From positions 8,494,001-8,558,000 of the forward strand of contig NZ_CP011125.1 of assembly GCF_000737325.1 (NCBI RefSeq): 64,000 nt of DNA. The letters are read 5' to 3'. This document shows positions 32,733 to 60,817 of this stretch, piece after piece (the first letter of the stretch is position 1; every line of letters begins with the position of its first letter). This DNA is from Sandaracinus amylolyticus. Its GTDB lineage: Bacteria; Myxococcota_A; Polyangia; Polyangiales; Sandaracinaceae. Both the position numbers and the translations under genes were made by a program. The notes beneath the pieces were generated by a model. The model did not search any database and was not told the origin of the DNA. It was given only the letters and a program-made list of their open reading frames with translations.

Positions 32733-32745
32733 CGCGGTCTCGCGG

Positions 32746-34037: not shown

Positions 34038-34068
34038 GGTCGTGCTCCGTCTCCCTCGGGTCGCTCGA

Positions 34069-37043: not shown

Positions 37044-37052
37044 GTGTGCCCC

Positions 37053-37481: not shown

Positions 37482-37600
37482 GAGGGAGCGTCCGCACCTC
37501 GTCCCCGCACGAGCGCCTCACAAGGGGCTGCTCGCGTCCCCTCACGATCCGTGGCGTTTCTACCCAGCGACCCGGTGCTCTGGGTCACGAGTTCACGGAG

Positions 37601-37615
37601 GGCACATCCGTTGCG
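37601..37615 (+). promoter_or_regulatory. Candidate sigma-54 promoter
   Basis: GGCAC-atccg-TTGCG has the invariant -24 GG and -12 GC of sigma-54 promoters at the right spacing, 35 bp upstream of the GTG at 37650. The start site would fall near 37626. No upstream activator site could be identified by eye. Confidence 0.4.
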
Positions 37616-37649
37616 TAGGAGCAGGTGGACCCGAGATCAGGAGGCCATC

Positions 37650-38036: not shown

Positions 38037-38178
38037 GCGCGCGGTCGATCGCCGCGATCCACGGATCACCCGCGGCGCCGGGCATCGCGCGGGCCTCGAC
38101 GAGGAACGCGCGCGCCGCGTCGCGATCGCCGTCGCAGGGGCTGCGCGCCGGGTGCGGCATCGGAACGTCGCGACGCAT
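38005..38178 (-). CDS. Possible small protein, 57 aa
   Basis: The frame reads SPCDGDRDAARAFLVEARAMPGAAGDPWIAAIDRALSEGVSCAGR and has G or C in nearly every third position, as in real genes here. Starts at 38178, 38160 or 38217 are possible. It overlaps the 3' end of the convergent 37650-38036 gene by 32 bp. It has two cysteines and no known motif. It could be a fragment of a larger lost gene. Confidence 0.35.
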   Translation of the reverse strand: MRRDVPMPHPARSPCDGDRDAARAFLVEARAMPGAAGDPWIAAIDRALSEGVSCAGR

Positions 38179-38305
38179 GCGCCGTCTCGCCGCCGGGACG
38201 CGACCCGGTTCGCGCACCCTCTGCCGAGAGCAACGCCGCGCGTGCAGACCCAGGGAGGGACTCGCGGTTCACTCCCAGGGTCCGGCGCGCAACGCGAACC
38301 GCGGC

Positions 38306-40273
38306 TCAGATCGAGAAGCTGATGTCGTGTCGGGCAGCGACGTCAGCGATCCACTTCACGTACTCGGATACGAGTGTGTAGATGCCGCCGTCACCGCACG
38401 GCCTCCCAGCTTCGCGCGTCGCTCGGGACGTGATGCCGGCCAGCTTCCACTCAGCCCCGATCTTCACATAGACGGGCCCGCCGGAGTCGCCGTTGCAAGT
38501 GTCGATGTCGAGCCCCTTGCGACCCGCGACGAACTCGAGACGCGGAGAGTAGTTGAGCGTGCGTGCGAGCCCCTCGTATGCACTCACGCTGTCGCGGGGG
38601 GGCACCGGGCCGAGCGGGAGGATGGCTTTCCGCTTCTCACCGAAGCCGGTGCTGCCCCACTGGTCTGCGTTCCCGAACCCCACTGCAGTGATCTCGTTCT
38701 CCTTCATCAGTTCTTCGCGCGAAGCGATCGAGAGCGCCGCTTGCTTCGCCTCCTTCGCCAGGACGACGAGCACGAGGTCGCCGCCCGGAATGCCGCGCCG
38801 GTACTCGTGATGGCGCACCGACCCCTCTGCTTCGACGACATCCCCGCTTTCCAGGAAGATGCCGTGGACGCTGCGCCCGCCGAGCAGCACGCGCGTCACT
38901 CGGCCCGCGGCGTCGCAGTGCGCCGCCGAGAGCACGAGCCGCGGGGCGATCAGCACGCCGCTGCACTGCCAACCGCGACCCTCGAGCTCGATGCACGCGC
39001 AGTCGGGGAACTCCCCGGCGGCGGCGGGAGCGCCTCCGAGAATTCGCTCGGCCATTCGATCCGCGCTCTCGACTTGGCGCGCGACTCGCGGCGCGCTCGC
39101 GCCGATCTCGAGCAAGCGCGCCTTCGCGTGCTGGTCCGTTGCGAGCTCGACGACCGAAGTCCAGTCACGCGCGATCGCGCGCGATGCGATCCGCTCGGGC
39201 GGAGCGACCGGCGGCGCTTCGGGCCAGTCCCCTGCTGCCGACCCGGTGTTCTGCGCCTTCGTCGCCGCCTCGACCGCCGCCGCCAGCACGGCGATCCTCT
39301 CCTCCAGCGCCGCGATGCGGTCCGGGCCCTCGCAGCCGCAGTCGCTCGCTCGCGACGTACCTCGCGAGCGCTCGGACGCCAGGCTCCGGAACCGGATCGA
39401 GTCTGCCGAGAGAATCGGAACCGGCGCAACCGACGCGTTGCGATCGAGCTCGTGATCCGAGAGGACGTCCGCGCGTCGCACCGCATCGGCGAAGCGGAGC
39501 CCGCACCAACTCTCGATGCGCCGCAGCGAAACCTGGTACGTCTTGAGCTCGTTGTACTTCGCACCCTGCTTGTCGTTCCAGGCGTCGACTTGACTCATCG
39601 CGAAGCACGCCGCGGCAAGCGAGTCCCCACCGCGCTCGTCACGAAGGACGATGACCTTCCAGTAGACCTTCGGGATGCGATAGCCCGGCGCGATGCGCTC
39701 CAGCACCTCCTCGCTCAGCTCCGAGTATCGCGGGTCGTCGTCCTCGAACACCGGCCCGGTGAACACGCATAGCCGGTACGAGTTGTCCGCGGCGCGCTCG
39801 AGCACCCAGTCCTCGAGCTCCGCCCACTCGTCCTGGTTGAAGTTCTTGTGCTGAGGCGCGGAGTTCGTGAGGAAGAACGTCGCGTCGTTGGCGTGCTTCG
39901 CCTCCTTCGGCGTCTCGCCCCACACCACGTCGAGCCGGCGCACGAGATGCCCATGATCGAACGCGCTCTCGCTGTAGCCGTCGCGATCGCTCGTTTGCGC
40001 GCTCTCGGCTCGCGGATCGGGCTGCCAGCGAGGCCGCTTCGAGATGCCCCGCACGCGTCGCGCGCCATCGATGTTGCACGCCGCGTAAACAGCGAGGCGC
40101 CTCCGGCGGTTCAGCACGAGCGAGTAGTGGATGTAGTCGAGCGGCTCGCCTCCTCGATAGGCCTGCGCGAGCGTGCTCGGCTCGAGCGTCGGCAACGACA
40201 CTTCGAAGCCGCGTCCCAGGAAGCTCGGATCGTACGGCATCAGGTACGGCAGGTACGGGTGGATCATCGTCAC
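38306..40273 (-). CDS. Fusion of DNA/RNA non-specific endonuclease and trypsin-like protease
   Basis: 655 residues from GTG 40273 (overlaps the CHAT stop as GTGA; ATG 40267 alternative). Residues ~20-270 resemble the beta-beta-alpha NUC endonuclease: SAFDHGHLVRRLD with catalytic H109 (the usual DRGH reads DHGH), TNSAPQHKNFNQDEWAELE, and LCVFTGPVFEDDDPRY. A Cys/Ala-rich coiled coil links to a chymotrypsin-fold protease with H452 (SAAHC), D499 (GGDLVLVVLA) and S597 (CNGDSGGPVYVK). No signal peptide is present, so both activities appear cytosolic. Proteolytic self-release or activation of the nuclease is a natural inference. It is the last gene of the CHAT-containing run. Confidence 0.85.
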   Translation of the reverse strand: MTMIHPYLPYLMPYDPSFLGRGFEVSLPTLEPSTLAQAYRGGEPLDYIHYSLVLNRRRRLAVYAACNIDGARRVRGISKRPRWQPDPRAESAQTSDRDGYSESAFDHGHLVRRLDVVWGETPKEAKHANDATFFLTNSAPQHKNFNQDEWAELEDWVLERAADNSYRLCVFTGPVFEDDDPRYSELSEEVLERIAPGYRIPKVYWKVIVLRDERGGDSLAAACFAMSQVDAWNDKQGAKYNELKTYQVSLRRIESWCGLRFADAVRRADVLSDHELDRNASVAPVPILSADSIRFRSLASERSRGTSRASDCGCEGPDRIAALEERIAVLAAAVEAATKAQNTGSAAGDWPEAPPVAPPERIASRAIARDWTSVVELATDQHAKARLLEIGASAPRVARQVESADRMAERILGGAPAAAGEFPDCACIELEGRGWQCSGVLIAPRLVLSAAHCDAAGRVTRVLLGGRSVHGIFLESGDVVEAEGSVRHHEYRRGIPGGDLVLVVLAKEAKQAALSIASREELMKENEITAVGFGNADQWGSTGFGEKRKAILPLGPVPPRDSVSAYEGLARTLNYSPRLEFVAGRKGLDIDTCNGDSGGPVYVKIGAEWKLAGITSRATREAGRPCGDGGIYTLVSEYVKWIADVAARHDISFSI

Positions 40274-43200
40274 GCCTCCTCCTTCTCCAGCGCGCTCGCA
40301 GCGTCCGCGAGCTCGCGGAACCCCGGTCCGATCGCTGCGAAGAGTCGGAGCAGATCGCGGGTCGCGCGCTGCCCGAGCACGATCGCGCGTCGCGACACGT
40401 CCGCGTGAATCGCTCGGGCGATCTCCGCGACGGCTTCGCCCTTCGCCGTCGCGAGATCGGCGAGCAGCGCGGGCAGCCGCTCGCGCGCCGTCGTCGTTCC
40501 TCCCGACAGCAGATCCGGTCGAGGGTGCGTCATCGCACCTCGACCGAGCGCGCGACGCGCGAGCTGGTGCTCCGCCCAGATGCGCAGGCGTTGGGAGTCG
40601 ATGTCCCTTCGGCGCTCGCGCTCGACCAGCTCCGCGGCTCTGCCGTAGAGCTCGAGGGCCGCATCGGCCCTGCCTTGATGCAGCCGCACCTGCGCGAGGA
40701 GCCGGCACCGCTCCGACGTCGGATGGACCTGGTGCAGCGAGTCGAGCAGCGCGGCCGCGCGCTCCACGTCGGGCCTCGCCTCGTTCCTCGAGAGCAGATC
40801 GGCGAGGTACTCGACCGTCGTGAGCGGCGGCTCCTCCGACCCCAGCGCGCGCACGAACAGCTCGATGGCGTCCTCGTCCATGCCCAGCGCGCGATGCACC
40901 GCCGCGACACGCTCGAGTGCCCTCCCGGTCGCGAGCGCGGGCGCGTCCAGCACCGCGCGCAACGCCGCCGCGCGCTCGCGCAGTGCGGGCAGCTCGCCGC
41001 GCATGCCGACCTGCGCGTCCCCCATGATCGAGATCGCCACCTCGATCACCTCCGCGCCCGAGACGAACGCACCGGGCTCCGTGCTCCCCCCGCCGCGGAG
41101 CGTGAACGCCGGATCGCCGTAACACTGGTACGCGCTCCACACCTCGCGCCCGCGGTCCTCGCGTTCCAGCGCGATGCGCGCCGAGCACACCGCGTCGGCG
41201 AGCGTCGCGCCCGCCAAGAGACCGCGGTACAGCTCCATCGCGAACACCCGCGCGAGCGAGTCGGGCACCTTGCGCGCCGCGCCGACGAACACCCGTGCCC
41301 CTCGGCTCATGAACGCCGCCGCCAAGCTCGACATCGAGCTGCTCGCCACGCGCCCCGCCTCGCACGCGTTCAACACCACGACGGTCGGACACGTCTCCAT
41401 CGCCGACGCGAGCGCTCCGTCGAGCAACAGCCCGCCGCCGAGCGCGACCTTGCCGCCGCTCTGCGCGGTGCCGTGCGCGGCGACGTGGAGGATGCGCACC
41501 GGCGCCGCGAAGAGCGCGCGCACCGCGTCCTCACCGCTCCTCTGCGCCAGCGTCGTGACCTCGTAGCCCGCCCGCTCGAGCAGGCCCGAGACGCCCATCG
41601 CCTCGAGCCGCGCCTCGCTCAGCTCTCCCCCGCCGTCGGCGGGGTCACCGATCACCACCGCGCGATGAGCGACCGCCTCGCGCCCCTCGCCCCCCCGCAC
41701 GTCGCGCAGCCGCCGCACGATGGGATGGCGCAGCGCGAGCGGCGCACCGTCCACCACGATCGACTCCCACGCGTAGCTCGCGCTCACCTCGTCGAGCTCG
41801 AGCTCGAGCGCGGTGGCGCCCTTCCTCAGGTCGGGTGGGACGAGCGCGAGCCCGTCCACGACCGTGCTCGGCACCGTGTGCTCGAGGGTCCGCGGCGCCG
41901 CTCCCCCGTCGCTGACGCGGAACCGCAGCTTCTGCGCCCCGTGGTACTCGATGCTCCAGCGCGTCAGCCGGCGCTCGCCCGCGCTCGCCGCGCGCGCCCC
42001 CAGGTACCCGCTCCCCCGCGCCATCGCCTCGGTCGCGATCCGCTCGCCGCGCGACGCGTAGCGCGCGAGGGCCCGCGTCGCGCGGATCGCGAGGTCCTCG
42101 TGCCGCTCGGTGATCCTCACGACGAGCTCGATGCCGAGCTGGTCCGCGGCGTCGTGCGCGCCCTCGGCGATCGCCACCGCCGCTTCCTCCACGCTCACGC
42201 CCTCGCCGGGCCTCGACCCGACGAGCTGCACCCCGACGGCGAGCCGTTCGAGCTTCTGCTCCGCCTTCTTCTCGCGCGGCACGAAGAGCCGGAGCAGCGC
42301 GCGCTGCACGATCGCCGCGAGGGAGCGCGCCGTCACCGCGTACGACGAGCCCAGCGAGACGATCGCGACGTCCTCCGTCACCAGGACCTCGCCGCCGATC
42401 GGAAGGACGCCGAGCTGCTGGTGGCGCTCGACGAGGCTCCACCCTTCGACCCGACCCAGCCGCGGAAGAGGCTCGCCGTCGTAGTGGGGGATCACGAGCG
42501 CGGTGGGCGGATCGTCGCCGCGATCCTTGGCGCTCGAGAGCGCGCCGTGGACGACCTTGGCGATCACCTTCGGCCTCGCCGGCGCCGCGGGCTCGTCACC
42601 GAGGGCCGCGGCGACGAGATCGTGCTCGGTGGGCAGCCGCAGCAGCGCGGGGATGTCTGCACCGTCGGCCACGGGGATCGCCCGTGGGGGCGCGCTCGGC
42701 GGGAGCGTTGCGTCCTCGACGAAGCGCACCACGAGGCCGTGCACCGCGGGATCGGCGAGCAAGCGCCCGAACGTCGCGCCGGCGCGGACCTGGCGATCGC
42801 GATGCGGCCACGCCTCGTCTTCGGCGGCGAGCACCACCGGCACCCCCGGAGGCGGAGCCTCGCTCGCATCGACCACGACCCTCTCGACGAGCGCGTCGCG
42901 GAGCGGCTCGGTGCTCGCCGGAGCGAGCTCGACGAGCCGCCGGCGGAGTAGGGCGCGACGGCGCGCCACGTTCCCGGCGCGCCCGAGCGCGAGCGCGCGC
43001 CCATGATCCTTCGGCAGCCGCGCCGCACCGGTGCCGTGCCCGATCACCGCGACAGCTTGGTCCGGCTCGATCGCACCCTCGGCGACCAGCTCGTAGCCCG
43101 CGCTCGCGAGCGCCTGCGCGAGATCGTCGTACCGCGCGGACGGCGCCGCCCGGGCCGCGGTCCACGTTTCCCCCTTCGGGTCGCGCTGGTGGAGCACGCT

Positions 43201-44598
43201 GGCGGTGGACGGCCAACGCGCCTCGCCGTTGTGCTCGAAGTGCGTGGTGCTCGCGTCGGGCAGCAGCAGCACCTTCCCGCGCGGAGCGCTCGACGCGCGC
43301 ATGCGCACGACCGCGTCCTCCGGCACTGCCTCGCCCTTCGCGGCGCGCTCGATCACCGACCGCGCCTCTCCATCGCCGAAGTACGAGAGGTGGTGGAGCG
43401 AGCGGTGCCGGCGGACCCACCCGCGCTCCCGCGCTCGTCTCGGGAAGCCCGCGCTCATCGACGTGGTGTCGACGACGAAGTCGTGGTCGCTCGCGAACAC
43501 CAGCCGCGACGCCTGCAGCGAGAGCCACCGCGCCGGACCGGTCATCAGCTCCGCGGCGGCCGCCACTCCGATCGGGGTAAGCGGCAGCTCGGTCGGACGT
43601 GTCGCCGCGAGCGCGCGGACGAAGGGCCCCTCGGAGCGCATCGCCGCGACGCCGGGCAGGACCGACGCGTCGATCCCCCGCCCGATGATCGAGAGGAACG
43701 CGGCCTTCGCGAACGCGAACGCATTCGACGCCGCCTCGTCCGCACCGCCGAGCTGGAGCGCCCACTGCGTGACGTTGAGCATGTGCCCGAGCACCGCGGG
43801 CAAGCGCCCCACCAGCGACGTGCCGGCCGCCGGGCACGCGACGCGCACGAAGCGCCCGACCCGCAGCTTCTTCTGTATCAGCACGCCGTCGAGCGTCTCG
43901 AGGACGCCGGCGAGCGCCCTGGCCTCCGGGTTCTCGGCGCGCGCGAGCCAAACGAGCGCGTCCTGCCTTTCGTCGCGGGACAGGTTCGCGCGGCACATCA
44001 GCTCACCGACGAGCCCGCCGCGCGAGTGGGTGACGAGATCGATCATGGCGCCGCCAGGCAGCGCGTTCGCCAGCGCGATCGCGTTGTCGATCGGGCTCTT
44101 GCCGAGCGTGTGGTGCCGCAGTGCGAAGAGTGGACCGCCGAGCGACGCCGGGAGGTTCTTGAACGCCGCCTCCGGCGTGGAGGCGAAGCCGTGGATGAAC
44201 ACGGTCGCGCGCTCGCCGGTGCTCGCCGCGCCCGCGACGGTCTCCCACTCGCCGTTCCACTGCTCGAGCCGATCTCCGCCTGCCCCGAGCAGCTTTCGCT
44301 CGAGCGCCAAGATCTGCTTCACCCCGACGTCGCCAGCGAGCTCACCGAAGTGCTCGACCACCGCGGAGAGATCCGCGGGGTCCACGTCGAGCTTCAGCTG
44401 CAGCAGTCGCCGCTGGCTCGATCGCGTCGTGGGCAGCACCGACGCCGACCTCGCCCACCGTCGGTAGCCGTGCTCGTCTTCGTCCTCGACGACGCGCAAC
44501 GCACTCGATGGCGCATCGCCATCCACCGCGGAGCGCGTCGGGTCCTGGACGATCTCGATCGAGCCGAATTTTCCAAGCCGCTCGGCCATCGCGCGCAC
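40270..44598 (-). CDS. Large lipase-like / CHAT caspase-like protein with TPR-like C-terminus
   Basis: 1442 residues. The N-terminal third contains an alpha/beta-hydrolase-like domain: ATVFIHGFASTPEAAF, MIDLVTHSRGGLVGELM (nucleophile elbow with T in place of the first Gly) and ASDHDFVVDTTSM. A long middle region is unassigned. The CHAT peptidase domain has H1042 in ILHVAAHGTAQ and C1079 in VVVLNACEAGR, the caspase-like dyad, followed by GARVFVGAARKVPDSLA and CYGDPAF. TPR-like helices end the protein. CHAT enzymes cleave partner proteins when activated. The gene overlaps the nuclease-trypsin gene by 4 nt, suggesting that protein as a substrate or partner. ATG 44589 is an alternative start. Confidence 0.85.
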   Translation of the reverse strand: MRAMAERLGKFGSIEIVQDPTRSAVDGDAPSSALRVVEDEDEHGYRRWARSASVLPTTRSSQRRLLQLKLDVDPADLSAVVEHFGELAGDVGVKQILALERKLLGAGGDRLEQWNGEWETVAGAASTGERATVFIHGFASTPEAAFKNLPASLGGPLFALRHHTLGKSPIDNAIALANALPGGAMIDLVTHSRGGLVGELMCRANLSRDERQDALVWLARAENPEARALAGVLETLDGVLIQKKLRVGRFVRVACPAAGTSLVGRLPAVLGHMLNVTQWALQLGGADEAASNAFAFAKAAFLSIIGRGIDASVLPGVAAMRSEGPFVRALAATRPTELPLTPIGVAAAAELMTGPARWLSLQASRLVFASDHDFVVDTTSMSAGFPRRARERGWVRRHRSLHHLSYFGDGEARSVIERAAKGEAVPEDAVVRMRASSAPRGKVLLLPDASTTHFEHNGEARWPSTASVLHQRDPKGETWTAARAAPSARYDDLAQALASAGYELVAEGAIEPDQAVAVIGHGTGAARLPKDHGRALALGRAGNVARRRALLRRRLVELAPASTEPLRDALVERVVVDASEAPPPGVPVVLAAEDEAWPHRDRQVRAGATFGRLLADPAVHGLVVRFVEDATLPPSAPPRAIPVADGADIPALLRLPTEHDLVAAALGDEPAAPARPKVIAKVVHGALSSAKDRGDDPPTALVIPHYDGEPLPRLGRVEGWSLVERHQQLGVLPIGGEVLVTEDVAIVSLGSSYAVTARSLAAIVQRALLRLFVPREKKAEQKLERLAVGVQLVGSRPGEGVSVEEAAVAIAEGAHDAADQLGIELVVRITERHEDLAIRATRALARYASRGERIATEAMARGSGYLGARAASAGERRLTRWSIEYHGAQKLRFRVSDGGAAPRTLEHTVPSTVVDGLALVPPDLRKGATALELELDEVSASYAWESIVVDGAPLALRHPIVRRLRDVRGGEGREAVAHRAVVIGDPADGGGELSEARLEAMGVSGLLERAGYEVTTLAQRSGEDAVRALFAAPVRILHVAAHGTAQSGGKVALGGGLLLDGALASAMETCPTVVVLNACEAGRVASSSMSSLAAAFMSRGARVFVGAARKVPDSLARVFAMELYRGLLAGATLADAVCSARIALEREDRGREVWSAYQCYGDPAFTLRGGGSTEPGAFVSGAEVIEVAISIMGDAQVGMRGELPALRERAAALRAVLDAPALATGRALERVAAVHRALGMDEDAIELFVRALGSEEPPLTTVEYLADLLSRNEARPDVERAAALLDSLHQVHPTSERCRLLAQVRLHQGRADAALELYGRAAELVERERRRDIDSQRLRIWAEHQLARRALGRGAMTHPRPDLLSGGTTTARERLPALLADLATAKGEAVAEIARAIHADVSRRAIVLGQRATRDLLRLFAAIGPGFRELADAASALEKEEA

Positions 44599-44655
44599 CC
44601 TCCCGCGTCCGAGCGCACCCGCGCGGACGTGAACGTCAGCAGAGGAACGGGTCGA

Positions 44656-45525
44656 TCAGCTCTCGGGCGAGACCGGCTGCGCGGGGCTCGCCGCTGCGGT
44701 CTCGCGAGCCCGAGGCTCGATCGGCGCGGTGAGCGCGTCGGCGAGGCGAGGCCGGGTCTCGGAGAACGTGGCGCGCGCGGCAGCGCGGAGGTGGTCCAGG
44801 CGATCGAGCAGCACGTCGAGCGCGATCTGCAGGTCGTCGGCGTCATCGGCGCGCCTTACTGCGCGGTCGACCTCGGCGCGCTTCGCGCCCGTGACATGCG
44901 AGTCCGCGAGCTCGATCGCGTCCTCGGCGGCCTGCAGCACCTGATCGGTCAGCGCAGGGAACCGGGCACGCACGCTGCGCGCGCCGGACACGATCGCGCG
45001 CGCCTCGCTCGGCAACGCGCGCGTGGGCTTGATCGGAGCGCCGAAGCCGAGGGCGTCGCGCGCAGGGTCGCCGGGGCGCGTGGTGTCCTCGACGATCGCG
45101 CGGAGCGTCGAGAGCTTGCGCGCCAGCTCGCCGAGCGGTGAGGCCGCCCCGGGCGCGCCCGCGATCCGATCGCGGCGCGAGGCGTCGAGACGGTCGAACG
45201 CGGTCCACGCCGCGGCATGGAAGCCTCGCGGCAGCGCCGGGTCGAGGATCGCGCGGTACTTCCACGCGAGCTTCAAGCGGACCTCGGCGTTTTTCAGCGC
45301 GACGTCGAAGCTCTCCACCGAGCGATCCGAGCGCTCCGCCGGCGCGAGCACGACTGGCTCGAAGTGCGGCCGCTCCAACTCGTCCGCCTCCGCGACCGCT
45401 GAGGGCTCGGCGCCATTCGTCCGAGGCTCGGCGGCGTCCGTCCGGCCCCCACCGGCGTTCTTCTTGGCCCGACCGGCGTTCCTCTTGGCCCCACCGGCGT
45501 TCTTCTTCCCGCGTGCGGTCGCCAC
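44656..45525 (-). CDS. Helical hypothetical protein with basic repeat N-terminus, 289 aa
   Basis: I take GTG 45525 (preceded by GGGGGAG) over ATG 45669, which would overlap the upstream ATPase gene. The start (KKNAGGA/KRNAGRA/KKNAGGG) comes from 21-bp DNA repeats around 45446-45510. The rest is helical, without catalytic motifs: SFDVALKNAEVRLKLAWKYRAILD...LPSEARAIVSGARSVRARFPALTDQVLQAAEDAIEL. It is placed 57 bp before the CHAT gene and 68 bp after the ATPase gene, so it may be an adaptor between the two. Confidence 0.65.
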   Translation of the reverse strand: MATARGKKNAGGAKRNAGRAKKNAGGGRTDAAEPRTNGAEPSAVAEADELERPHFEPVVLAPAERSDRSVESFDVALKNAEVRLKLAWKYRAILDPALPRGFHAAAWTAFDRLDASRRDRIAGAPGAASPLGELARKLSTLRAIVEDTTRPGDPARDALGFGAPIKPTRALPSEARAIVSGARSVRARFPALTDQVLQAAEDAIELADSHVTGAKRAEVDRAVRRADDADDLQIALDVLLDRLDHLRAAARATFSETRPRLADALTAPIEPRARETAAASPAQPVSPES

Positions 45526-45593
45526 GTTGCTCCCCCGTGCTGTGGACGCGTCAAGCTCGCTCGGTACGCGCGGGGGCGTCAAGGGCCCGAGGG

Positions 45594-47744
45594 TTATCCG
45601 GGAGGTTCCTGTGACGGCGAGGTGTCGTGAGGCGGCGGCGAGGTGGGAGTCGTCGAGTCGGAGGGACATCGGCGCTCACAGGCCCGCAGCGCCGCGCGCG
45701 CGTCGTCGAGCTCGCCTGTGCACGTCGCTAGCGCAGCATGCGCCTGCGCTCCTGCGTCGCGTGCGTCGTCGCGCTCCCGGGTGCGCGTCGCCAGCGCGGC
45801 AAGCGACTGCGCTCCTGCGTCGAGCGCATCGTCCCGCTCCCGGGTGCGCGTCGCCAGCGCAGCAAGCGCCTGCGCTCCTCCGTCGAGCGCGTCGTCCCGT
45901 TCCCTGGTGCGCGTCGCCAGCGCAGCAAGCGCCTGCGCTCCTCCGTCGAGCGCATCCTCCCGCTCCCGGGTGCGCGTCGCCAGCGCGCCGCGCGCCTGCG
46001 CTCCTCCGTCGAGCGCATCCTCCCGCTCCCGGATGACCCGAGCAAGCGCCTGCACTCCTGCGTCCAACTCGCGTCGCATTCGGGCAAGCTGCTGCGCTCC
46101 CCCATCGACCGCGTCCCGCGCCTGGTCGCGCTCCGCTGTACGCGTCGCCAGGGCACGCATTCCCCCATCTACCGCCTGGTCGTGCATCGTCTGTGCACGC
46201 GCGTCGGCTTCGTGGACGAAAAGGCGGAGCTCGCTCTCGATCCGGCTGATGTGCGCCTCGAACGCCTCACGCTCCTGCGGCTCGGTGACCTGCCCGATCG
46301 CGTTCCGCAGGACTGCGAGCTGGTCCTCGACGCCTCGTACGTCGTCGCGCGGCGCCTCCGGCGCGAGCTGCGCTTCCAGGTCCCTGATCCGCTGCTCCCG
46401 CTCCGCGCTCACGACCGACACCCCGGCGACGGCCACGAGCGCGACGATCACCGTGACCGCCGCCGCCAGGAGCACCGCCCTGTGGCGACGTGTGCGCGCG
46501 GCGAGCTCGCTCGCGTCGAGGAACGCCTGCTCTTCGAGCGTCGCCTCGTTCTCGACGAGCCACTGCCTCGCGCGCGCCAGCGCGTCGCCGCGCAGCAAGT
46601 GACGCGGTGCCCGGCCCGACCCGAGCCACTCGCGGCTGACGTCGCGATACGGGCGCTTGAGCAGCGCCTCTTCGCGATCCAGCCATCGTCGGTCGAACGC
46701 TTCCTGGATGAACTTGCCGCGGAGCTCGAGCCGCAGCCGCGATGCGTCGCCCTCGATCGCGGCGCGGCGCGCCAGCCCGACGAACCAGAGCAGCTCGCCT
46801 GCGTCGCGCTGTGCGGCATCGCGCGCGTCGACGACGGGGAGCTCCCCGTCGAGCAGGCGCCGGTAGAGCGACAGCGCCTGCGCGCGCTGCGCGGGCGGAG
46901 CGTGAAGCTGCTCCATCTGATCGCGCATGAACGCGAACAACGCGTCGGCGTCATTCGGCTTCTGGGTCCTGCTCCTGCCCAACAGGTTCTGGGCGGCCGC
47001 GTGAACCCGCTGATCGACCGAGCCCTCTCGCTCTCCTCGAGCGATCGCCTCGCACAGGCGCTGGAACAGGTAGGGATGACCGCCGGTCCACTCGCCGAGC
47101 CGATCGGCGAGCACCGGGATGTCGATGGTCCCTTGGAGCTCGCTCTGTTCGAGCGCGGCCCTCATGCCCGCGGGGTCGAGGTCGCGGAGGTCGACATTCG
47201 GCAGGCGCGTGACTGCAGTCGCGGCGGCAGGCCCGAGATCGCTGGGCCGGCACATGCCAGCTAGCGCGACGCCGAGCCGACCTCCAGCCCGTTCGCTGAG
47301 CTCGAGCAGGGTGCCGAGCACGTCGCCCGCGAGCTGCGGTCCGAGGAAGTTGACCTCGTCGATCAGGAGCACGAGCGGCTTCGGCCCCGCGAGTGCCGCG
47401 GCGAGCACGCCGGTCAGGCGCGCGCGGAGCTCGCCCGGCGGGGGCTCGGGGACCTGGAGCTCGCTCGCGAGCTGTTGGACGATTGTCTTCGCGTGCTCGG
47501 CGTCGCTCACGTCGCGCTCGCGGTCGCGCTCGGGCAGTTTGACGTAGCCGACCCGCCGGCCCTCGCGCTCGAGCTCCGCCTGCGCGAGCAGCAACGCGCT
47601 CGTCTTGCCGAGCCGCGCCGGGCCGAGGACGGTGCACGCTTGGCCTTTGCGCAGTGTGTCGATGAGCGCCGCGATCTCGCGGCGCGGCACGAACAGGTCG
47701 CGGCCGACGCGGACCGGGCGCCCTGCGACGAAACGAGCACTCAT
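45594..47744 (-). CDS. AAA ATPase with one membrane span and 21-residue coiled-coil repeats (module copy 1)
   Basis: 716 residues from ATG 47744. FVAGRPVRVGRDLFVPRREIAALIDTL leads into P-loop GPARLGKT (41-48) and Walker B KPLVLLIDEVNFL, then a sensor-like GGHPYLFQRLCEAI, as in AAA_14/STAND-like conflict ATPases. One membrane span lies at about 423-445 (AVLLAAAVTVIVALVAVAGVSVV). Beyond it is a coiled coil ending in five 21-residue repeats (RERDDALDGGAQALAALATRT) and a Ser/Thr/Pro tail. The likely role is nucleotide-controlled sensing or scaffolding at the membrane. The gene follows its small partner by 4 bp. It is paralogous to 48559-50568. Confidence 0.8.
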   Translation of the reverse strand: MSARFVAGRPVRVGRDLFVPRREIAALIDTLRKGQACTVLGPARLGKTSALLLAQAELEREGRRVGYVKLPERDRERDVSDAEHAKTIVQQLASELQVPEPPPGELRARLTGVLAAALAGPKPLVLLIDEVNFLGPQLAGDVLGTLLELSERAGGRLGVALAGMCRPSDLGPAAATAVTRLPNVDLRDLDPAGMRAALEQSELQGTIDIPVLADRLGEWTGGHPYLFQRLCEAIARGEREGSVDQRVHAAAQNLLGRSRTQKPNDADALFAFMRDQMEQLHAPPAQRAQALSLYRRLLDGELPVVDARDAAQRDAGELLWFVGLARRAAIEGDASRLRLELRGKFIQEAFDRRWLDREEALLKRPYRDVSREWLGSGRAPRHLLRGDALARARQWLVENEATLEEQAFLDASELAARTRRHRAVLLAAAVTVIVALVAVAGVSVVSAEREQRIRDLEAQLAPEAPRDDVRGVEDQLAVLRNAIGQVTEPQEREAFEAHISRIESELRLFVHEADARAQTMHDQAVDGGMRALATRTAERDQARDAVDGGAQQLARMRRELDAGVQALARVIREREDALDGGAQARGALATRTREREDALDGGAQALAALATRTRERDDALDGGAQALAALATRTRERDDALDAGAQSLAALATRTRERDDARDAGAQAHAALATCTGELDDARAALRACERRCPSDSTTPTSPPPHDTSPSQEPPG
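45717..46031. repeat. Five 63-bp tandem repeats in the ATPase gene
   Basis: Five in-frame copies encode the 21-residue unit RER(E/D)DALDGGAQALAALATRT; the middle copies are almost identical, implying recent expansion. Upstream units (near 46032-46190) are degenerate versions of the same unit. Confidence 0.75.
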
Positions 47745-47748
47745 GATT

Positions 47749-48525
47749 TCACCTCGCCAGCTTCGACAGGAGCGGCACGGCCAGCGTGGGGTTGCTAGGC
47801 GAACCGGCAACCAAGCCCCAGCTCCGAAGCTTCAGCCACTCGTCGGGCCGGAGTGTCCCACCAGGCAGCTCGAAGAGCGTCTCCAGCGTCCCGCCCTCGA
47901 TCTCGCGGCTCAGTGTCCGCACCCAGTCGTCGAACGGACAATCCGACCGTTTGGGATCGAGCGCGTGCAGCACGGGCATCCCGCGCGCGACGGCAGAAAG
48001 CACTTGGAGCATCAGGTACGGGTGACCGCCCGTCAGCGTGCGCACCGTGGTGAGGTCGGCGCGGCTGATCGGCGCGTCTAGCGCGGCAGCCAGTGACTGC
48101 GCCTCTGCCGAGCTGAGCGGAGCCACCGCGAACGGGGTCACGCGCGCGAGCAGGTACGGCGGAGAGAACTCGAGTGGCTCGAGGGTCGAGACCAGCACCA
48201 GCCTCACGGGCTCCACCTTGCCCCTGACGATGTCGATCACCCAGTTGTCGATCGTCTGGAACAGATCGACCGGCAGCTCCTCGAGACCGCTCAGCACCAG
48301 AACGCCGGCATCCGCACGTCGGTCCTTCACGACCGAGGGCACCTCCGGGGCGCTGACCCAGCGCACGCGCCCGTAGCCCGCGAGCCGCGTCATCGCGGTG
48401 TGCTTGCCGTACCGTTTCGGCCCATGGACGAGCACGGAGTTCGGGATGCCCTGCTCGGGTTTGACGGCGAGCGCGTTCTGAACGGCTGTCTCCCAGGCGC
48501 GCTTCAGCGGCGGAGCGGAGGTCAT
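47749..48525 (-). CDS. Small partner with altered P-loop (module copy 1)
   Basis: 258 residues from ATG 48525 (GTG 48528 possible). SVLVHGPKRYGKHTAMTRL resembles a Walker A, but the residue after the Lys is His (GKHT), so nucleotide binding is uncertain. VLVLSGLEELPVDLFQTIDNWVIDI has the look of a Walker B region, and GGHPYLMLQVLSAV matches the sensor helix of AAA_14-like ATPases, as in the adjacent ATPase. It probably forms a heteromeric complex with that ATPase, 4 bp downstream. It is ~70% similar by eye to 50572-51351. Confidence 0.75.
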   Translation of the reverse strand: MTSAPPLKRAWETAVQNALAVKPEQGIPNSVLVHGPKRYGKHTAMTRLAGYGRVRWVSAPEVPSVVKDRRADAGVLVLSGLEELPVDLFQTIDNWVIDIVRGKVEPVRLVLVSTLEPLEFSPPYLLARVTPFAVAPLSSAEAQSLAAALDAPISRADLTTVRTLTGGHPYLMLQVLSAVARGMPVLHALDPKRSDCPFDDWVRTLSREIEGGTLETLFELPGGTLRPDEWLKLRSWGLVAGSPSNPTLAVPLLSKLAR

Positions 48526-48558
48526 CACCGCGAGTGTCGCCGACGTCGAGCGGCCGCT

Positions 48559-50568
48559 TCAAGGACGCTCAGGTCTGAGTTCCTGCTCGCACGTCGCAAG
48601 CGCCGCGCGAGCCTGGTCACGCTCCTGCGTGCGCAACGCCAGCCCAGCATTCGCCTGGTCGCGCTCGGTACGAGCCTGGTCGCGCTCTCGCGTGCACGAT
48701 GTCAGCGCAGCACTCGCCTGATCGCGCTCCTGGATGCGCGTCGTCAGCGCCGCAAACGCCTGAGCGCACTCCTGGGTGCGCGTCGCCAGCGTTGCGAGCG
48801 CCTCGTCGCGCTCCGCCGTTCGCGTCGTCAGGTCCCGGCGCGCATCATCACGCTCGTGCGTCCGCGAGGCCAGCGCGTCGCGCGCGTCGTCGCGTTCCCG
48901 CGTTCGCGTCGTCAGCGCTCGATACGCCTCCTCCGTGTGCGTCGCCAGGTCGCGGAGCGCATCGTCGCGTTGCTGCGTGCGCACCGCCAGATCGCGTCGC
49001 AGCGCTTCGCGCTCCTCGATGATCGTCTGTGCGTGCGCGTCGGTTCCTCGGACGTAGAGTTCGAACTCGCCTTCAATCCGGCTGATGTGCGCCTCGAACG
49101 CCTCACGCTCCTGCGGCTCGGTGACCTGCCCGATCGCGCTCCGCAAGGCTGCGAGCTGGTCCTCGATGCCCTGCACATCGCCGCGCGGCTCCACCGGCGC
49201 GAGCTGCGCTTCCAGATCCCTGATCCGCTGCTCCCGCTCCGCGCTCGTGACGGACAGCCCGACGACGGCCACGAGCGAGACGATCACCGTGGACGCAGTC
49301 GCCAGGAGCGCGACCCTGAGGCGGCGTGTGCGCACTGCGAGCTCGCTCGCGTCGAGGAACGCTTGCTCCTCGAGCGTCGCTTCGTTCGCCGCGAGCCACT
49401 GCCTCGCGCGCGCCAGCGCGTCACCGCGCAGGAGGTGTCGCGGCGATCGGCCGGACGCGAGCCACTCACGGCTCACATCGCGAAACGGGCGCTCGAGCAG
49501 CGCCTCTTCGCGGTCCAGCCAGCGCCGGTCGAACGCCTCTTGGATCAACCTGCCGCGGAGCTGGAGGCGCAGCCGCGACGCGTCACCCTCGATCGGGACG
49601 CGGCGCGCCAGACCGACGAACCAGAGAAGCTCGGCCGCCTCGCGCTGCGCCGCGTCGCGCGCGTCGATGACGGGAAGCTCCCCATCGAGCAGGCGCCGGT
49701 AGAGCGACAGCGCCTGGGCGCGCTGCGCGGGCGCTGCGTGAAGCTGCTCCATCTGATCGCGCATGAACGAGAGGAGTGGATCGGCGTCCTTCGACTTCTG
49801 CGCCTTGTTCCTGCCCAACAGGTTCTGGGCGGCCGCGTGGACCCGCTGATCGACCGAGCCCTCTCGGTCGCCACGCGCGATCGCCTCGCACAGGCGCTGG
49901 AACAGGTAGGGATGACCGCCGGTCCACTCGCCGAGCCGATCGGCGAGCACCGGGATGTCGATGGTCCCTTGGAGCTCGCTCTGTTCGAGCGCGGCCCTCA
50001 TGCCCGCGGGGTCGAGGTCGCGAAGGTCCACGTTGGGCAAGAGGGCCAGGGCGCTTGCCGCGGCAGGCCCGAGATCGCTGGGCCGGCACATGCCCGCGAG
50101 CGCGACGGCGAGGCGGCCGCCAGCGCGCTCGCAGACGTCGAGTAGGGTGCCGAGTACGTCGCCCGCGAGCTGCGGTCCGAGGAAGTTGATCTCGTCGATC
50201 AAAAGCACCAACGGCTTCGGCGCCGCGAGCGCCGCGGCGAGCACGGCGGTGAGGCGCGCGCGGAGGTCGCCCGATGGGCGGTCGGGGATCTGAAGCTCTG
50301 TCGCGAGCTGTTGGACGATGTTGTTTGCGTGCTCGGCATCGCTGACCTCCCGCTCATGGAGCTTGAGATAGCCGACGCGCCGGCCCTCGCGCTCAAGCTC
50401 CTCCTGCGCGAGCAGCAACGTGCTCGTCTTGCCGAGCCGCGCCGGGCCGAAGACGGTGCACGCGTGGCCTTTGCGCAGCGCATCGATGAGCGCGGCGATC
50501 TCGGGACGCGGCACGAAGAGATCGCGGCCGACGCGGACCGGGCGCCCTGCGACGAACCGAGCTGCCAT
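48559..50568 (-). CDS. AAA ATPase with one membrane span and 14-residue coiled-coil repeats (module copy 2)
   Basis: 669 residues. The first ~480 are nearly colinear with the product of 45594-47744: P-loop GPARLGKT at 41-48, KPLVLLIDEINFL, GGHPYLFQRLCEAI, then a membrane span (ALLATASTVIVSLVAVVGLSV). The C-terminal coiled coil differs: it uses a ~14-residue repeat (ALTTRTRERDDARD and variants) instead of 21. So the ATPase half is conserved while the coiled coil has diverged. It starts 3 bp after its small partner gene. Confidence 0.8.
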   Translation of the reverse strand: MAARFVAGRPVRVGRDLFVPRPEIAALIDALRKGHACTVFGPARLGKTSTLLLAQEELEREGRRVGYLKLHEREVSDAEHANNIVQQLATELQIPDRPSGDLRARLTAVLAAALAAPKPLVLLIDEINFLGPQLAGDVLGTLLDVCERAGGRLAVALAGMCRPSDLGPAAASALALLPNVDLRDLDPAGMRAALEQSELQGTIDIPVLADRLGEWTGGHPYLFQRLCEAIARGDREGSVDQRVHAAAQNLLGRNKAQKSKDADPLLSFMRDQMEQLHAAPAQRAQALSLYRRLLDGELPVIDARDAAQREAAELLWFVGLARRVPIEGDASRLRLQLRGRLIQEAFDRRWLDREEALLERPFRDVSREWLASGRSPRHLLRGDALARARQWLAANEATLEEQAFLDASELAVRTRRLRVALLATASTVIVSLVAVVGLSVTSAEREQRIRDLEAQLAPVEPRGDVQGIEDQLAALRSAIGQVTEPQEREAFEAHISRIEGEFELYVRGTDAHAQTIIEEREALRRDLAVRTQQRDDALRDLATHTEEAYRALTTRTRERDDARDALASRTHERDDARRDLTTRTAERDEALATLATRTQECAQAFAALTTRIQERDQASAALTSCTRERDQARTERDQANAGLALRTQERDQARAALATCEQELRPERP

Positions 50569-50571
50569 CGT

Positions 50572-51351
50572 TCACCTCGCCAGCGTCGACAAGAGCGGCA
50601 CCGCCAGAGTGGGATTGCCAGGCGAGCCGTCGACCAAGCCCCAGCTCCGCAACCTCATCCACTCGTCGGGCCGGAACGCCCCGCCGTACCTCGGCAGGTG
50701 GAACAGCTCCTCCAGCGTCCCGCCCTCGATCTCGCGGCACAGCGCCCGCACCCAGTCGTCGAACGGGCAGTCCGACCGCTTCGGATCGAGCGCGTGCAGC
50801 ACAGGGACCCCGCGCGCGACGGCGGAGAGCACTTGGACCATCAGGTAGGGGTGGCCGCCCGCGAGCGTGAGCACGGCGCTGAGGTCGGCGGGGCTGATCG
50901 CCGCGCCGACCGCAGCGGCCAGTGAATGCGCCTCGGCCGAGCTGACCGGAGGCACGGCGAAAGGGGTCACGCCCGCGAGCAGATACGACGGGGAGAACTC
51001 GAGTGGCGCGACGCTCGAGACCAGCACCAGTCTCACCGGATCCGCCGTGCCTCTGCTGATATCGATTGCCCAGTCGTCAATCGTTTGCAGCAGGTCGACC
51101 GGCAGCTCCTCGAGACCGCTCAGCACCAGCACGTCGGCGTCCACGCGGCGGTCCTTCACCAGCGCGGGCACCTCGCGTGCGCTGGCCCAGCGCACGCGCC
51201 CGTGGCCCTCGAGCCGAATCATCGCGGTGTGTTTGCCGTACCGCTTCGGCCCGTGGACGAGCAGTGGGTTCGTGAACGCCTGCTGGGGCTTGGCGACGAG
51301 CGCGGTCCGAACGGCGGTCTCCCAAGCCCGAACGAACGGCAGCGGCGTCAT
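50572..51351 (-). CDS. Small partner with altered P-loop (module copy 2)
   Basis: 259 residues from ATG 51351 (a longer ORF to 51510 would overlap rdrA and has an Arg-rich leader). LLVHGPKRYGKHTAM has the same His-substituted Walker A as copy 1, with VLVLSGLEELPVDLLQTIDDW and GGHPYLMVQVLSAVARG conserved. It is the first gene of the minus-strand run, head-to-head with rdrA across 134 bp. Confidence 0.75.
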   Translation of the reverse strand: MTPLPFVRAWETAVRTALVAKPQQAFTNPLLVHGPKRYGKHTAMIRLEGHGRVRWASAREVPALVKDRRVDADVLVLSGLEELPVDLLQTIDDWAIDISRGTADPVRLVLVSSVAPLEFSPSYLLAGVTPFAVPPVSSAEAHSLAAAVGAAISPADLSAVLTLAGGHPYLMVQVLSAVARGVPVLHALDPKRSDCPFDDWVRALCREIEGGTLEELFHLPRYGGAFRPDEWMRLRSWGLVDGSPGNPTLAVPLLSTLAR

Positions 51352-51420
51352 CGGTGCGAGTCTGCGCGCTCCGCGACGCGGCTGTCGACTTCTCACCCGG
51401 CGAGCGCTCCGCGAGGTGGC

Positions 51421-51485
51421 GGACAATTTTCCGCTCACGCGGCCGTCGCGTACAATCTCGCGCCGACACGACACGAGGGGGTCGC
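51421..51485 (+). promoter_or_regulatory. Candidate rdrA promoter region and Shine-Dalgarno
   Basis: TACAAT at 51451-51456 is a good -10 hexamer for rdrA; a matching -35 is poor (TTTCCG at 17-bp spacing). GAGGGGG (51474-51480) is the ribosome-binding site for the GTG at 51486. The 134-bp region 51352-51485 also must hold the start signals of the divergent run. Confidence 0.35.
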
Positions 51486-54400
51486 GTGCCCGATCAGGTC
51501 TTCGCTCCACGACGAGAAGCGTCGGTCTTCCCGTACGACGAGCTCATCTCGGTCCAGCAGCAAGCGGTCGTTCGCATGCTCGACCTGCTCGCCGCGATGG
51601 CCACGTCGGACCTCAAGGGACCACACCCACGGAGCCGCGATACGCGCTTCGCCGCGGCGGTGGACTTCGAGCGCGAGAACCGTGTGATCCTCATCGACGG
51701 GTCGCGTGGATCCGGCAAGACCGCGGTGCTCGTGTCGCTGATCGAAGGCCTCGCGGCCGCGGCGTTCGGGGGCTTCCGGAACGACCGGGACGAAGCGGCG
51801 GCGAAGTACGACGCGCGGACGAGAGGGTACGTCGAGCTCGTCGAGAGACGGGAAGCGCGCGGCCGGATCATCCCGCTGCCAATCCTCGATCTGCAGCCCC
51901 TCCCAGACGGCGCGAACCTCGGTGCCTTGGTGATCGGACGCTTGCTCCGAGTCGCCGAGGAGCTCGGCAGCGAGCGACGCTGCGGCGAGCGCGGGGCGTC
52001 GCCGCCGCGCCGCGATGGCGAGGTGGACCGCGGAGAGCGCGAGAAGCTGGAGCGCGCGAGCGAGCAGCTCGCGCTCTCGCTCGCGAGCTGGGATGGCACG
52101 GCGGGCGCGCGCAAGGCGCACGTGGAGCCCTCCGTCTACGCGATGGAGCTGATCGAGGAAGCGCGCCTGGGGCTCGATCTCGACCTCACGTTCCGGGGCT
52201 TCATGGACGCGCTGTGCAAGCGCTACGAGCGCGGTCGATTCGACGGCTGCGGCGAGCCGCTCTTCGTGATCCCGGTCGACGACGCGGACATGAACCCACG
52301 GCGGATCTGGGAGCTGCTCTCGCTCGCGCGAGTGCTCTACCACCCGCGGCTCGCCTTCATCTTCACGGGAGACTCCACGCTCTTCGAGACGGTGCTACGC
52401 GCCGAGCTGCTCGCGGGTCTCTACGCGCCGTTGCGGAACATCCACCCTCACTGGGCGGAGGGCGCGCGGCTCGAGCCGCACGGCGCGACCGACCTCGCGG
52501 TCCAGCACTACGATCGCGCGATCCCGCCGCACCATCGGTGCAAAGTGGGCCCGATCGCGCCCGCGGATCGCCTCAAGATCTGGAGCGAGGGAGGCGGGCG
52601 CGGAAGCGTGGGTCACGGCACGACCGTGATGCTCGCCCTGCATCACCCGAGCGGCATCCGGCTCGGGGACCAAGAGCTCAACATGGCGCAGCTGTTCACT
52701 CTGGACGGCAAGCGCCCGGGACGGCTCGCCGCGCTGCTCCCGGATCGCCTGCGCGCGCTGCAGGACTTCGTCCGCTTCGTCGCAGATCGATCTCGGAGCG
52801 GTGACGGCACCACGCCGGCAACGACGGTCGCACGGCTCGTTCACGAGCTCTGGCGCGACGCGGTGCGCCGGAGCGGCCTCTCCACGTCGGAGCAACGCGA
52901 GCTCGACGAGGTCGTCACGCTCGGGGAGCGCGGCGAGCTCTCGATCGCCGCGGCGTCCCTGGAGATCCGGCGCGGCTTCCGATCGATCGACGTGATCGAG
53001 CTTCACGGGCCCGCCAGCATCGTGCTCCGCTCTCCGGCGCGAGGGCGTCTGTTCTGGACGAACGCGGCGTGGCGCGAGGACCGAGGGCGCCACGAGGCGC
53101 CGCTGCCGAGCGCGTTGCTCGCGTCGCTCGTGCTCGCGGTCGACGTCGCGTCGACGCGAGGGCGAGCGGCGTTCCTAGGCCGTGCGCCGGTGCCGCGTGA
53201 GCTCGACGGCCTCTTCGTGAAGACCCGCTACGAGCACGGGCGCCGGGAGCCCCTCGAGCTGGCCTGGCCGCAGCCGGAGTGGATGGGCTTCGTCTGGTCG
53301 GAGCGGCTCCGCGACGAGTGGGAGAACGTCGCGAATGGCAAAGGATTCGCCGAGATCGCGTACGACAAGATCCACGGGGGCTGTGTTCTGGCGGTGTACG
53401 TGGGGGCGGTGCTCGCGGCCGCCGGCATCCTCCGCGAGCCGCTCGTCCCCGAGCTCAAGTCGGATCCCGCGAAGGCGTACGCCTTCGTGATCGACCGCAT
53501 CTCGAAAGACCTGCGCTCGGCGTTGCACCGCGACGACCCGGTCCGGCGCTGGGTCGTGGACGCGCTGCCGGTCGTGTGCGCACCGGAGTACGGGCTCGGC
53601 GCGCGCGACGCGAGCGCGGTCTACGACGCCATCCGGGGTGCGGTCCGCTACTGGGGCGAGAACGAGGAGCGCTGGGTCGAGCGCGTCGCACGCCGCCGAG
53701 TGAGGGTGATCGCAGACGCCCTCCGGCGCGCGGCCGCGGCGAGGCGCGACCCGGTGCGCGACGGTGAGGCGGACGAGATCGCGAGCGAGATCGACGCGAG
53801 TGTGTCGGGCTATCCCGTGCGCCAGCGGAGCGCAGACGAGCTCCTCCAGGCGGTCCTCGACGCTGTGCCCGTGGTCCACACCGACTCGTTCACGCGTGAG
53901 GTGCCCGCAACGCTGCTCGGCTACGCGCGAACCCGCCGCCGCGAGGCCCTGCTCGCGCGCACTCCGCCAGCGCTCCAGCAGCTCCTCGCGACGCTGATCG
54001 GCCACGTGCGGAGCGACCCCAAGAAGGGTCCGCGCGACGTGCTCCTCGAGGTCTGGCGCTGGCTGGGCAGGCAGAAGGCGTCGCAGGCGCGCGTGTTCTT
54101 CGACCCGGACCATCCGACCCAGGACGCGTTCCGCGTCGAGCGCGTCGCCGCGGCGAAGCTGGAAGGGGCGCTCTCACGCGTAGCGACGGCGCGGGCGCTC
54201 GAGATCGAGCGCGTGCTGAAGGGCTCGGACGACTCCTCGCTCGACCCGCTGGCCGACACGTTCCTCCGCATGCTGTGGGATCTCTCGCGCGATCTCGGCG
54301 ACGACGACATGCCCTCGCTCGGCGCCAGGGACGTGTGGGACGGCTTCGAGCTCGAGCACCACGTCGCCGACCGTTCGTTCGTCACGAAGTGGCCCGCCCC

Positions 54401-54929
54401 GCCGTGGCCCGCGCTCTACGATTGGGAGCTGATGGACGACCGGTGGTACGCCGCGATCGACCAGCTCGCGCGGCGGAAGCGCCCCCTCGATCAGCCCGTG
54501 GTCGATGCGCTGGCGTTCGTCTTCATCGACGCGTGCGTCTCGCTCGGGAAGAGGCAGCGGACCAGCGGATCGCGGGTCGCGGAGGTCACGCCGATGCCCC
54601 CGAACGAATGGCAGGAGCTCGTCAAGCTCGCCTTCACGCGGAGCTCGGTGGACCACCGCGGACCGCGCTACGAGGCGTGGCAGCGCTGGCTGTACGAAGG
54701 ACTCGTGCTCATGGCGGCGCCCGAGAGCGGGCTCTCGCCCGATCGGGCGTTCTTCCTGCTCGACGCGCTCTCGAACCACAGCCCGGTAGTGCTGCCGTGG
54801 GCCGAGCGCCAGGAGCGCCGGAAGCGCGCGATCGTCGCGCAAGGTCACAAGCCGGCGGTGGCGAACGCCATCCTCCGCGCGATCGACGACGGCGTGCCCG
54901 ATCACCCGTGGCTCAAGTGGGCGCGCTGA
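51486..54929 (+). CDS. rdrA: RADAR system ATPase RdrA
   Basis: 1147 residues from GTG 51486. RVILIDGSRGSGKTAVLVSLI contains P-loop G72-T79, and PLFVIPVDDADMNPRRIWELLSLARVLYHPRLAFIFTGD is the Walker B and sensor region, as in the large ATPase of RADAR. RdrA forms a ring-like oligomer that works with RdrB during phage infection. The identification rests on the ATPase motifs plus the adjacent deaminase, one base downstream. The middle (residues 350-900) has no motif I recognise, and the protein seems longer than RdrA proteins I recall (~900 residues). Confidence 0.82.
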   Translation: MPDQVFAPRREASVFPYDELISVQQQAVVRMLDLLAAMATSDLKGPHPRSRDTRFAAAVDFERENRVILIDGSRGSGKTAVLVSLIEGLAAAAFGGFRNDRDEAAAKYDARTRGYVELVERREARGRIIPLPILDLQPLPDGANLGALVIGRLLRVAEELGSERRCGERGASPPRRDGEVDRGEREKLERASEQLALSLASWDGTAGARKAHVEPSVYAMELIEEARLGLDLDLTFRGFMDALCKRYERGRFDGCGEPLFVIPVDDADMNPRRIWELLSLARVLYHPRLAFIFTGDSTLFETVLRAELLAGLYAPLRNIHPHWAEGARLEPHGATDLAVQHYDRAIPPHHRCKVGPIAPADRLKIWSEGGGRGSVGHGTTVMLALHHPSGIRLGDQELNMAQLFTLDGKRPGRLAALLPDRLRALQDFVRFVADRSRSGDGTTPATTVARLVHELWRDAVRRSGLSTSEQRELDEVVTLGERGELSIAAASLEIRRGFRSIDVIELHGPASIVLRSPARGRLFWTNAAWREDRGRHEAPLPSALLASLVLAVDVASTRGRAAFLGRAPVPRELDGLFVKTRYEHGRREPLELAWPQPEWMGFVWSERLRDEWENVANGKGFAEIAYDKIHGGCVLAVYVGAVLAAAGILREPLVPELKSDPAKAYAFVIDRISKDLRSALHRDDPVRRWVVDALPVVCAPEYGLGARDASAVYDAIRGAVRYWGENEERWVERVARRRVRVIADALRRAAAARRDPVRDGEADEIASEIDASVSGYPVRQRSADELLQAVLDAVPVVHTDSFTREVPATLLGYARTRRREALLARTPPALQQLLATLIGHVRSDPKKGPRDVLLEVWRWLGRQKASQARVFFDPDHPTQDAFRVERVAAAKLEGALSRVATARALEIERVLKGSDDSSLDPLADTFLRMLWDLSRDLGDDDMPSLGARDVWDGFELEHHVADRSFVTKWPAPPWPALYDWELMDDRWYAAIDQLARRKRPLDQPVVDALAFVFIDACVSLGKRQRTSGSRVAEVTPMPPNEWQELVKLAFTRSSVDHRGPRYEAWQRWLYEGLVLMAAPESGLSPDRAFFLLDALSNHSPVVLPWAERQERRKRAIVAQGHKPAVANAILRAIDDGVPDHPWLKWAR

Positions 54930-54930
54930 C

Positions 54931-57564: not shown

Positions 57565-57682
57565 GGTCTCGACAGCTCGTCGCGCCCAGTGCCGACATCA
57601 CGCCGGTCCGAATTGCGAAATGCGCGTGCGCGCGACGACGCGCTTGCGATCGCCGCGCCGCGGGCCGAAGCGACGGAGCAGG

Positions 57683-58387: not shown

Positions 58388-58391
58388 TCGA

Positions 58392-60744: not shown

Positions 60745-60817
60745 TCCGCTCCGCGCTTCGGGACCCCGGCTTTCCAACGGCAGATCGAATTCTTCTCAGC
60801 CGTGAGTACAGCCACAC

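Follow-up and report, generated by a model that had tools for sequence, protein, structure and literature searches.

Does the run of seven same-strand genes at 38306-51351 of the window (the 64,000-nucleotide stretch of Sandaracinus amylolyticus contig NZ_CP011125.1 analysed here, whose own numbering is used throughout) encode a single conflict system, as a preliminary description proposed, and how would such a system deploy its effectors? The genome of the host, a soil bacterium, consists of 10,327,335 bases in one contig with 72% GC. The seven genes are transcribed in the order gA, gB, gC, gD, gE, gF, gG, and two divergent genes lie beyond gA:

gA, 50572..51351, minus strand: AAA_35-like pseudo-NTPase with the P-loop GKH and the Walker B Asp lost (Pfam AAA_35 E=3e-4, below cut-off)
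gB, 48559..50568, minus strand: AAA_22/AAA_35-type NTPase with one transmembrane segment and a coiled-coil-like tail (Pfam AAA_22 E=2e-7)
gC, 47749..48525, minus strand: second copy of gA, 77% identical to it in protein sequence
gD, 45594..47744, minus strand: second copy of gB, 73-78% identical to it in protein sequence, with a repeat tail of another length
gE, 44656..45669, minus strand: orphan with a Lys/Asn/Gly-rich N-terminus and a predicted-helical C-terminal half
gF, 40270..44589, minus strand: DUF7379 hydrolase, degenerate second hydrolase, CHAT and TPR
gG, 38306..40267, minus strand: NucA-type endonuclease, linker, zymogen site R408-I409-LGG (predicted cut after R408) and trypsin
RdrA-like ATPase, 51486..54929, plus strand: 1147 aa, divergent from gA across a 134-nt gap
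RdrB-like adenosine deaminase, 54931..57564, plus strand: 877 aa, with HLHAG, HAGE, GHA and NTDNP motifs

The seven genes form one run that holds up by open reading frame position, strand and coding-type GC3 (0.84-0.91 where measured alone), and the domains first assigned to gB/gD, gF and gG, with gE left without a family, agree with the profile matches. The residue numbers do change: they had been counted from GTG starts two to three codons upstream, so that the former H109, S597 and C1079 are H107, S595 and C1076 here. Most junctions are shorter than 35 nt (gA/gB 3 nt, gB/gC 33 nt, gC/gD 4 nt, and gF/gG 2 nt or a GTGA overlap); gE and gF are separated by 66 nt (57 with a GTG start) and gD and gE overlap by 76 nt. 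The tight junctions and the possible start-stop overlap of gF and gG suggest co-translation. A scan for promoters and terminators gave no credible candidate, yielding no more than shuffled sequence.

The unit that was gained is larger than the seven genes. An accessory block of 19.5 kb (38136..57639) is absent from the near-complete congener G288, in which the block ends are 1,916 bp apart, while the immediate flanks are 98% (34479-38135) and 92% (57682-60745) identical to the congener and the wider flanks (30000-38135 and right of 57640) align to it at 87-98%. Because the whole block is missing between such similar flanks, the unit gained is the seven genes together with the divergent pair at 51486-57564, which the preliminary description missed; the block contains nothing else of size. 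In the congener an intact open reading frame for a 723-aa membrane protein spans the insertion site, and its remnants flank the block in S. amylolyticus, with the last 40-odd codons at 38006-38135 and a start-like stretch at 57640-57760. The simplest history would thus be that the block was acquired through a replacement within the gene for this protein. The G+C content of the block (71.7%) is hardly unlike that of its flanks, the only direct repeats at its ends are 11-mers, taken as chance, and gB was absent from all nine other family members in a family-wide search. To the left of the block (29783-34178) are gas-vesicle type genes (Gas_vesicle, an ArsA-like ATPase and GvpL/GvpF), which the congener also has.

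The divergent pair resembles the two-gene ATPase and adenosine-deaminase pair of RADAR (rdrA-rdrB, PMC9994260), including the deaminase motifs, which are intact, but it is very divergent and is joined to a protease-nuclease operon. The RdrA-like protein matches the NCBIfam RdrA profile at E=8e-7 (28 bits against a cut-off of 600) and the RdrB-like protein matches RdrB at E=4.5e-43 (148 bits against a cut-off of 800); since both scores are below the curated cut-offs, the pair is termed RADAR-like only. Relatives of the RdrB-like protein are present in 13 other sampled myxobacterial genomes, and in other myxobacteria, too, RdrA-like genes precede RdrB-like ones.

The duplication reported for the first four genes is clear: a two-gene NTPase module is repeated in tandem with 86% DNA identity over 2.3 kb. 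The ratio dN/dS is 0.35 for gA/gC and 0.21 for the NTPase part of gB/gD, so both copies look constrained in these parts by purifying selection. The gB and gD proteins have an AAA_22 domain, one hydrophobic segment (KD19 2.36 and 2.89, approximately residues 419-442) and a coiled-coil-like tail; in contrast to the NTPase parts, the repeat tails are unlike in length and sequence. In gD the tail (45594-46300) consists of 18-residue-type repeats (LATRTRERDDALDGGAQA), expanded relative to gB, and is possibly a length-variable coiled coil. The partner proteins gA and gC do have the altered P-loop described previously (GPKRYGKHT), and the Walker B Asp is also gone (VLVLSGLEEL). A gA-gB pair recurs in two myxobacteria (L027 and L028) as a metallophosphoesterase-AAA protein followed by an AAA-TM-WD40 type protein, and there the gA-like domain retains the Walker B Asp as well as GKT, so that gA and gC appear to be degenerate descendants. 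The AlphaFold model of gA is weak (mean pLDDT 52, from an alignment of two rows). A PADLOC match of gA to "Cas11" (E=6e-5) was rejected as spurious, as no more than 64 residues, immediately behind the P-loop, are covered.

The next two genes differ in how much can be said of them. No Pfam, NCBIfam or PADLOC profile matches gE, and no relative was found in 264 myxobacterial genomes or on plasmids; the sole hit, in genome G218, was set aside as chance, since it contains two stops and overlies unrelated genes. The gF protein matches the DUF7379 alpha/beta-hydrolase (2e-18), CHAT (1e-23) and TPR families. Its first hydrolase is intact (Ser190 in THSRGG), its second is degenerate, with the nucleophile lost in the family alignment (GHSMGG to GHGTGA), and the CHAT domain retains the His and Cys (H1039/C1076). 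The gF family is scattered, with the domain order DUF7379 hydrolase, LCAT-like hydrolase, CHAT, TPR. In Ensifer its members are behind an nSTAND1-propeller NTPase and a periplasmic-binding gene; in Paracoccus they directly follow a membrane protein, and of the two such proteins checked one has an SBP domain match; in Azotobacter and three myxobacteria they are alone or beside unrelated genes. From the Ensifer and Paracoccus neighbourhoods (L134 5339-13884; L136 3241-11932; L133 3407-13812), coupling of a sensor or NTPase to lipase-CHAT recurs with different sensors, and these loci are possibly a ligand-sensing death module.

The gG protein combines Endonuclease_NS (PF01223, E=1.8e-48) with Trypsin (PF00089, E=1.9e-21) and has the nuclease residue H107, the trypsin residues H450, D497 and S595, and D589 and D594. 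Full-length relatives with the same order of nuclease, linker and trypsin, roughly 33-42% identical to gG, are found in Sinorhizobium/Ensifer, Acaryochloris, a Myxococcota MAG, Saprospiraceae/Chitinophagales and Planctomycetota. The most distinctive new feature is the zymogen site R-[IV][VIL]GG: the trypsin domain opens with it in all the full-length relatives that were examined and also in one stand-alone trypsin, D589 and D594 being conserved alongside it, and the motif D-[ST]-C-x-G-D-S-G-G-P is likewise kept across the full-length relatives. In gG the site is exactly at the border of linker and trypsin, and mature residues 1 and 2 of trypsins, kallikreins and factor D in the PDB align to I409 and L410. 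In S1A proteases, the activation cut lets the new N-terminus pair with Asp194, which orders the active site. As judged by its sequence, gG has the zymogen features of this chymotrypsin family: the R/K-[IV][VIL]GG site, the His-Asp-Ser triad and D594 as the Asp194 equivalent. The AlphaFold model is poor overall (mean pLDDT 51, seven rows), and within this poor model the low-confidence stretches 582-594 and 617-627 coincide with regions that are disordered in trypsinogen.

With the nuclease and its linker serving as propeptide, the activation cut would also separate the nuclease: cleavage after R408 should by itself turn the trypsin on and release the nuclease. Among the mechanistic inferences at the locus this one is the strongest, a prior caging of the nuclease being presumed, and the conserved site at the linker border lends strong sequence support to the earlier suggestion that a cut inside gG frees the nuclease. 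The trypsin has the Asp189 equivalent, and position 216 appears to be Ala (TSRA); a preference for Arg/Lys is likely, although not certain given this apparent Ala. With the Asp189 equivalent present, self-activation in trans is possible.

On the reading favoured here, which we would put at slightly better than even, the block was acquired as a defence cassette and uses proteolysis to kill or arrest an infected cell, probably to stop cells infected by phage. The reading is favoured because of the gain of the block between intact flanks, the conserved zymogen site, the neighbourhoods of gF and gG relatives, and published precedents. The sequence establishes the order of the genes, the duplication, the domains, the catalytic residues, the conserved zymogen site and the gain of the block; the defence function, the trigger, the order of the cascade, the role of CHAT and any link to the RADAR-like pair are inferred. 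The two modules, gA/gB and gC/gD, in which a dead AAA-like partner accompanies a membrane-anchored NTPase, would keep the system off and would switch state upon an insult at or near the membrane. Engagement of gF through gE and the TPR region of gF may then activate the CHAT protease and the intact N-terminal lipase, and gG would be cut after R408 either by CHAT or by trypsin molecules brought together, cleaving one another in trans. Insertion of the new N-terminus I409 against D594 would render the trypsin active and leave the nuclease separated, after which nuclease, trypsin and lipase could damage DNA/RNA, proteins and membrane. The conflict-system interpretation given initially fits the co-inherited block, the RADAR-like neighbours and the close published parallels; what it lacks is conservation of the seven-gene set.

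Homologues scattered with no common neighbourhood had been named beforehand as a refutation, and on that test the seven-gene set fails: only partial associations were found. No locus outside this genome has the exact set in searches of phylum genomes (140 for gG, 282 each for gB and the N-terminal part of gF, 264 each for gE and the CHAT part of gF, 255 for the RdrB-like protein), of 10 genomes of the family with gB as query, of plasmids and viral contigs, and of genome contigs in a single scan, and no homologues of gA-gF were found near more than 50 nuclease or nuclease-trypsin loci. The parts recur separately: the NTPase pair by WD40 sensors, lipase-CHAT behind sensors, and nuclease-trypsin mostly alone. 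With the set known from one genome, operon structure is the one line that couples the seven genes. Two or three independent systems could therefore be stacked in one defence island, namely the RADAR-like pair, an operon of NTPases and lipase-CHAT, and a nuclease-trypsin that works by itself with no upstream gene required. The majority of gG relatives are solitary, gF relatives occur without gG too, and RdrA/RdrB-like pairs are found without gA-gG; however, the junctions that suggest co-translation, and the presence of all the genes in a single block, with a 134-nt divergent region in common, make such stacking somewhat unlikely. Rather more doubtful is that all nine genes are one system, in which a RADAR-like deaminase arm and an NTPase/lipase-CHAT/zymogen arm would share a control region and travel jointly, with one proteolytic cut turning on protease and nuclease simultaneously, as a bacterial analogue of zymogen cascades.

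For the favoured defence cassette, the precedents bear on how much of the design is new. Systems with NucA and trypsin have been described, with deployment via a proteolytic cascade proposed (System 3 of Kaur et al. 2020; PMC7159879, section 32), and pairings of alpha/beta-hydrolases and caspases are noted in the same work. As in System 3, gG has a NucA-type nuclease and a trypsin in one polypeptide, and operons of that system may hold an NTPase; here, the nuclease is N-terminal and the trypsin C-terminal with a classical zymogen border, and gG is accompanied by AAA pairs and lipase-CHAT. For the EAD1 adaptor and the trypsin/Death-like STAND partner, which belong to subsets of System 3 only, there is no Pfam match in the seven proteins, although Pfam may hold no EAD profiles. 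Experiments have shown that trypsin-like proteases (in Hachiman and Avs) or caspases (in Canu) turn on MBL-fold pro-nucleases (PMC12799240). The likeness to these gated nucleases (HamMAB, Avs1, CanABC) is that a trypsin- or caspase-type protease activates a pro-nuclease, which for gG is predicted; their nucleases have the MBL fold and come from a gene of their own, whereas that of gG is of the NucA fold and fused in cis to the zymogen. The gF CHAT gene is directly upstream of gG, as the caspase-fold protease gene is upstream of the nuclease gene in Canu, but the MBL nuclease of Canu is absent and the cassette is therefore not filed as Canu. In Sinorhizobium/Ensifer (L040 9448-13992; L044 7385-11992), a caspase-like gene is two genes upstream of the nuclease-trypsin, with a 525-aa unknown protein between, and in Sinorhizobium it is Peptidase_C14-like (E=4e-4, slightly below the Pfam cut-off); the order is like CanA-CanB-CanC, but the effector is NucA-trypsin. 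Csx29 of Craspase (PMC10028731) is also a CHAT protease with TPR repeats and acts on a partner protein; here there is no CRISPR part, and gF has N-terminal lipase domains. The cassette would work like System 3, the gated nucleases and LypABC, but only for System 3 are the defining features present. The novelty first claimed is accordingly reduced, with NucA-trypsin fusions and their proteolytic deployment, and protease-activated pro-nucleases, both already in the literature (PMC7159879; PMC12799240). We read the cassette as a variant of the immunity, exemplified by System 3, the Hachiman/Avs/Canu pairs and CARD-NLR, in which proteases activate pro-nucleases; its nuclease fold differs and its zymogen is built in cis.

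The CARD-NLR/LypABC systems (PMC13236601) also combine an NTPase, a trypsin and a trypsin-endonuclease fusion, with variants that have phospholipase and endonuclease effectors. LypABC, an NLR-like protein with a trypsin-endonuclease, releases gene transfer agents in Caulobacter, and lysis required the protease residues while the endonuclease residues were dispensable (PMC13236601); the nuclease of gG thus need not be the effector. In LypC the trypsin is first and the endonuclease second, the reverse of gG, and the cassette adds a lipase-CHAT protein; its NTPases match AAA_22/AAA_35, not NACHT, and no CARD profile matches the seven proteins, although a CARD could evade sequence search. Two myxobacterial loci (L018 4711-6981; L019 9905-12070) have the LypC-like order, with a serine protease and then a NucA nuclease. 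As the related set serves host lysis, and the host presumably belongs to a multicellular predator lineage, the cassette could be a programmed-lysis or developmental cell-death system and not phage defence, but this is improbable, in that a species-specific acquired block by RADAR-like genes resembles accessory defence and not core development. Conserved cysteines in the trypsin domain of a protein without a signal peptide are a point against the defence reading, as they leave the cellular compartment ambiguous; that these cysteines, and the lamin-tail domain of some gG relatives, mark secreted or predatory exoenzymes (nuclease, trypsin and lipase) with a membrane regulator is nevertheless very hard to credit, the N-termini of gG and its relatives showing no signal peptide.

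If the defence reading is true, the cassette would be another, independent bacterial route to protease-activated nucleases, in which NucA is joined in cis to a trypsin zymogen of the classical type and a single event both activates and releases. The model would be directly testable, since mutation of a single residue, R408, is predicted to abolish both activities. The range of sensors that are coupled to lipase-CHAT proteins would also grow, and the cassette suggests that compound immune cassettes may join RADAR-like deaminases to proteolytic effectors.
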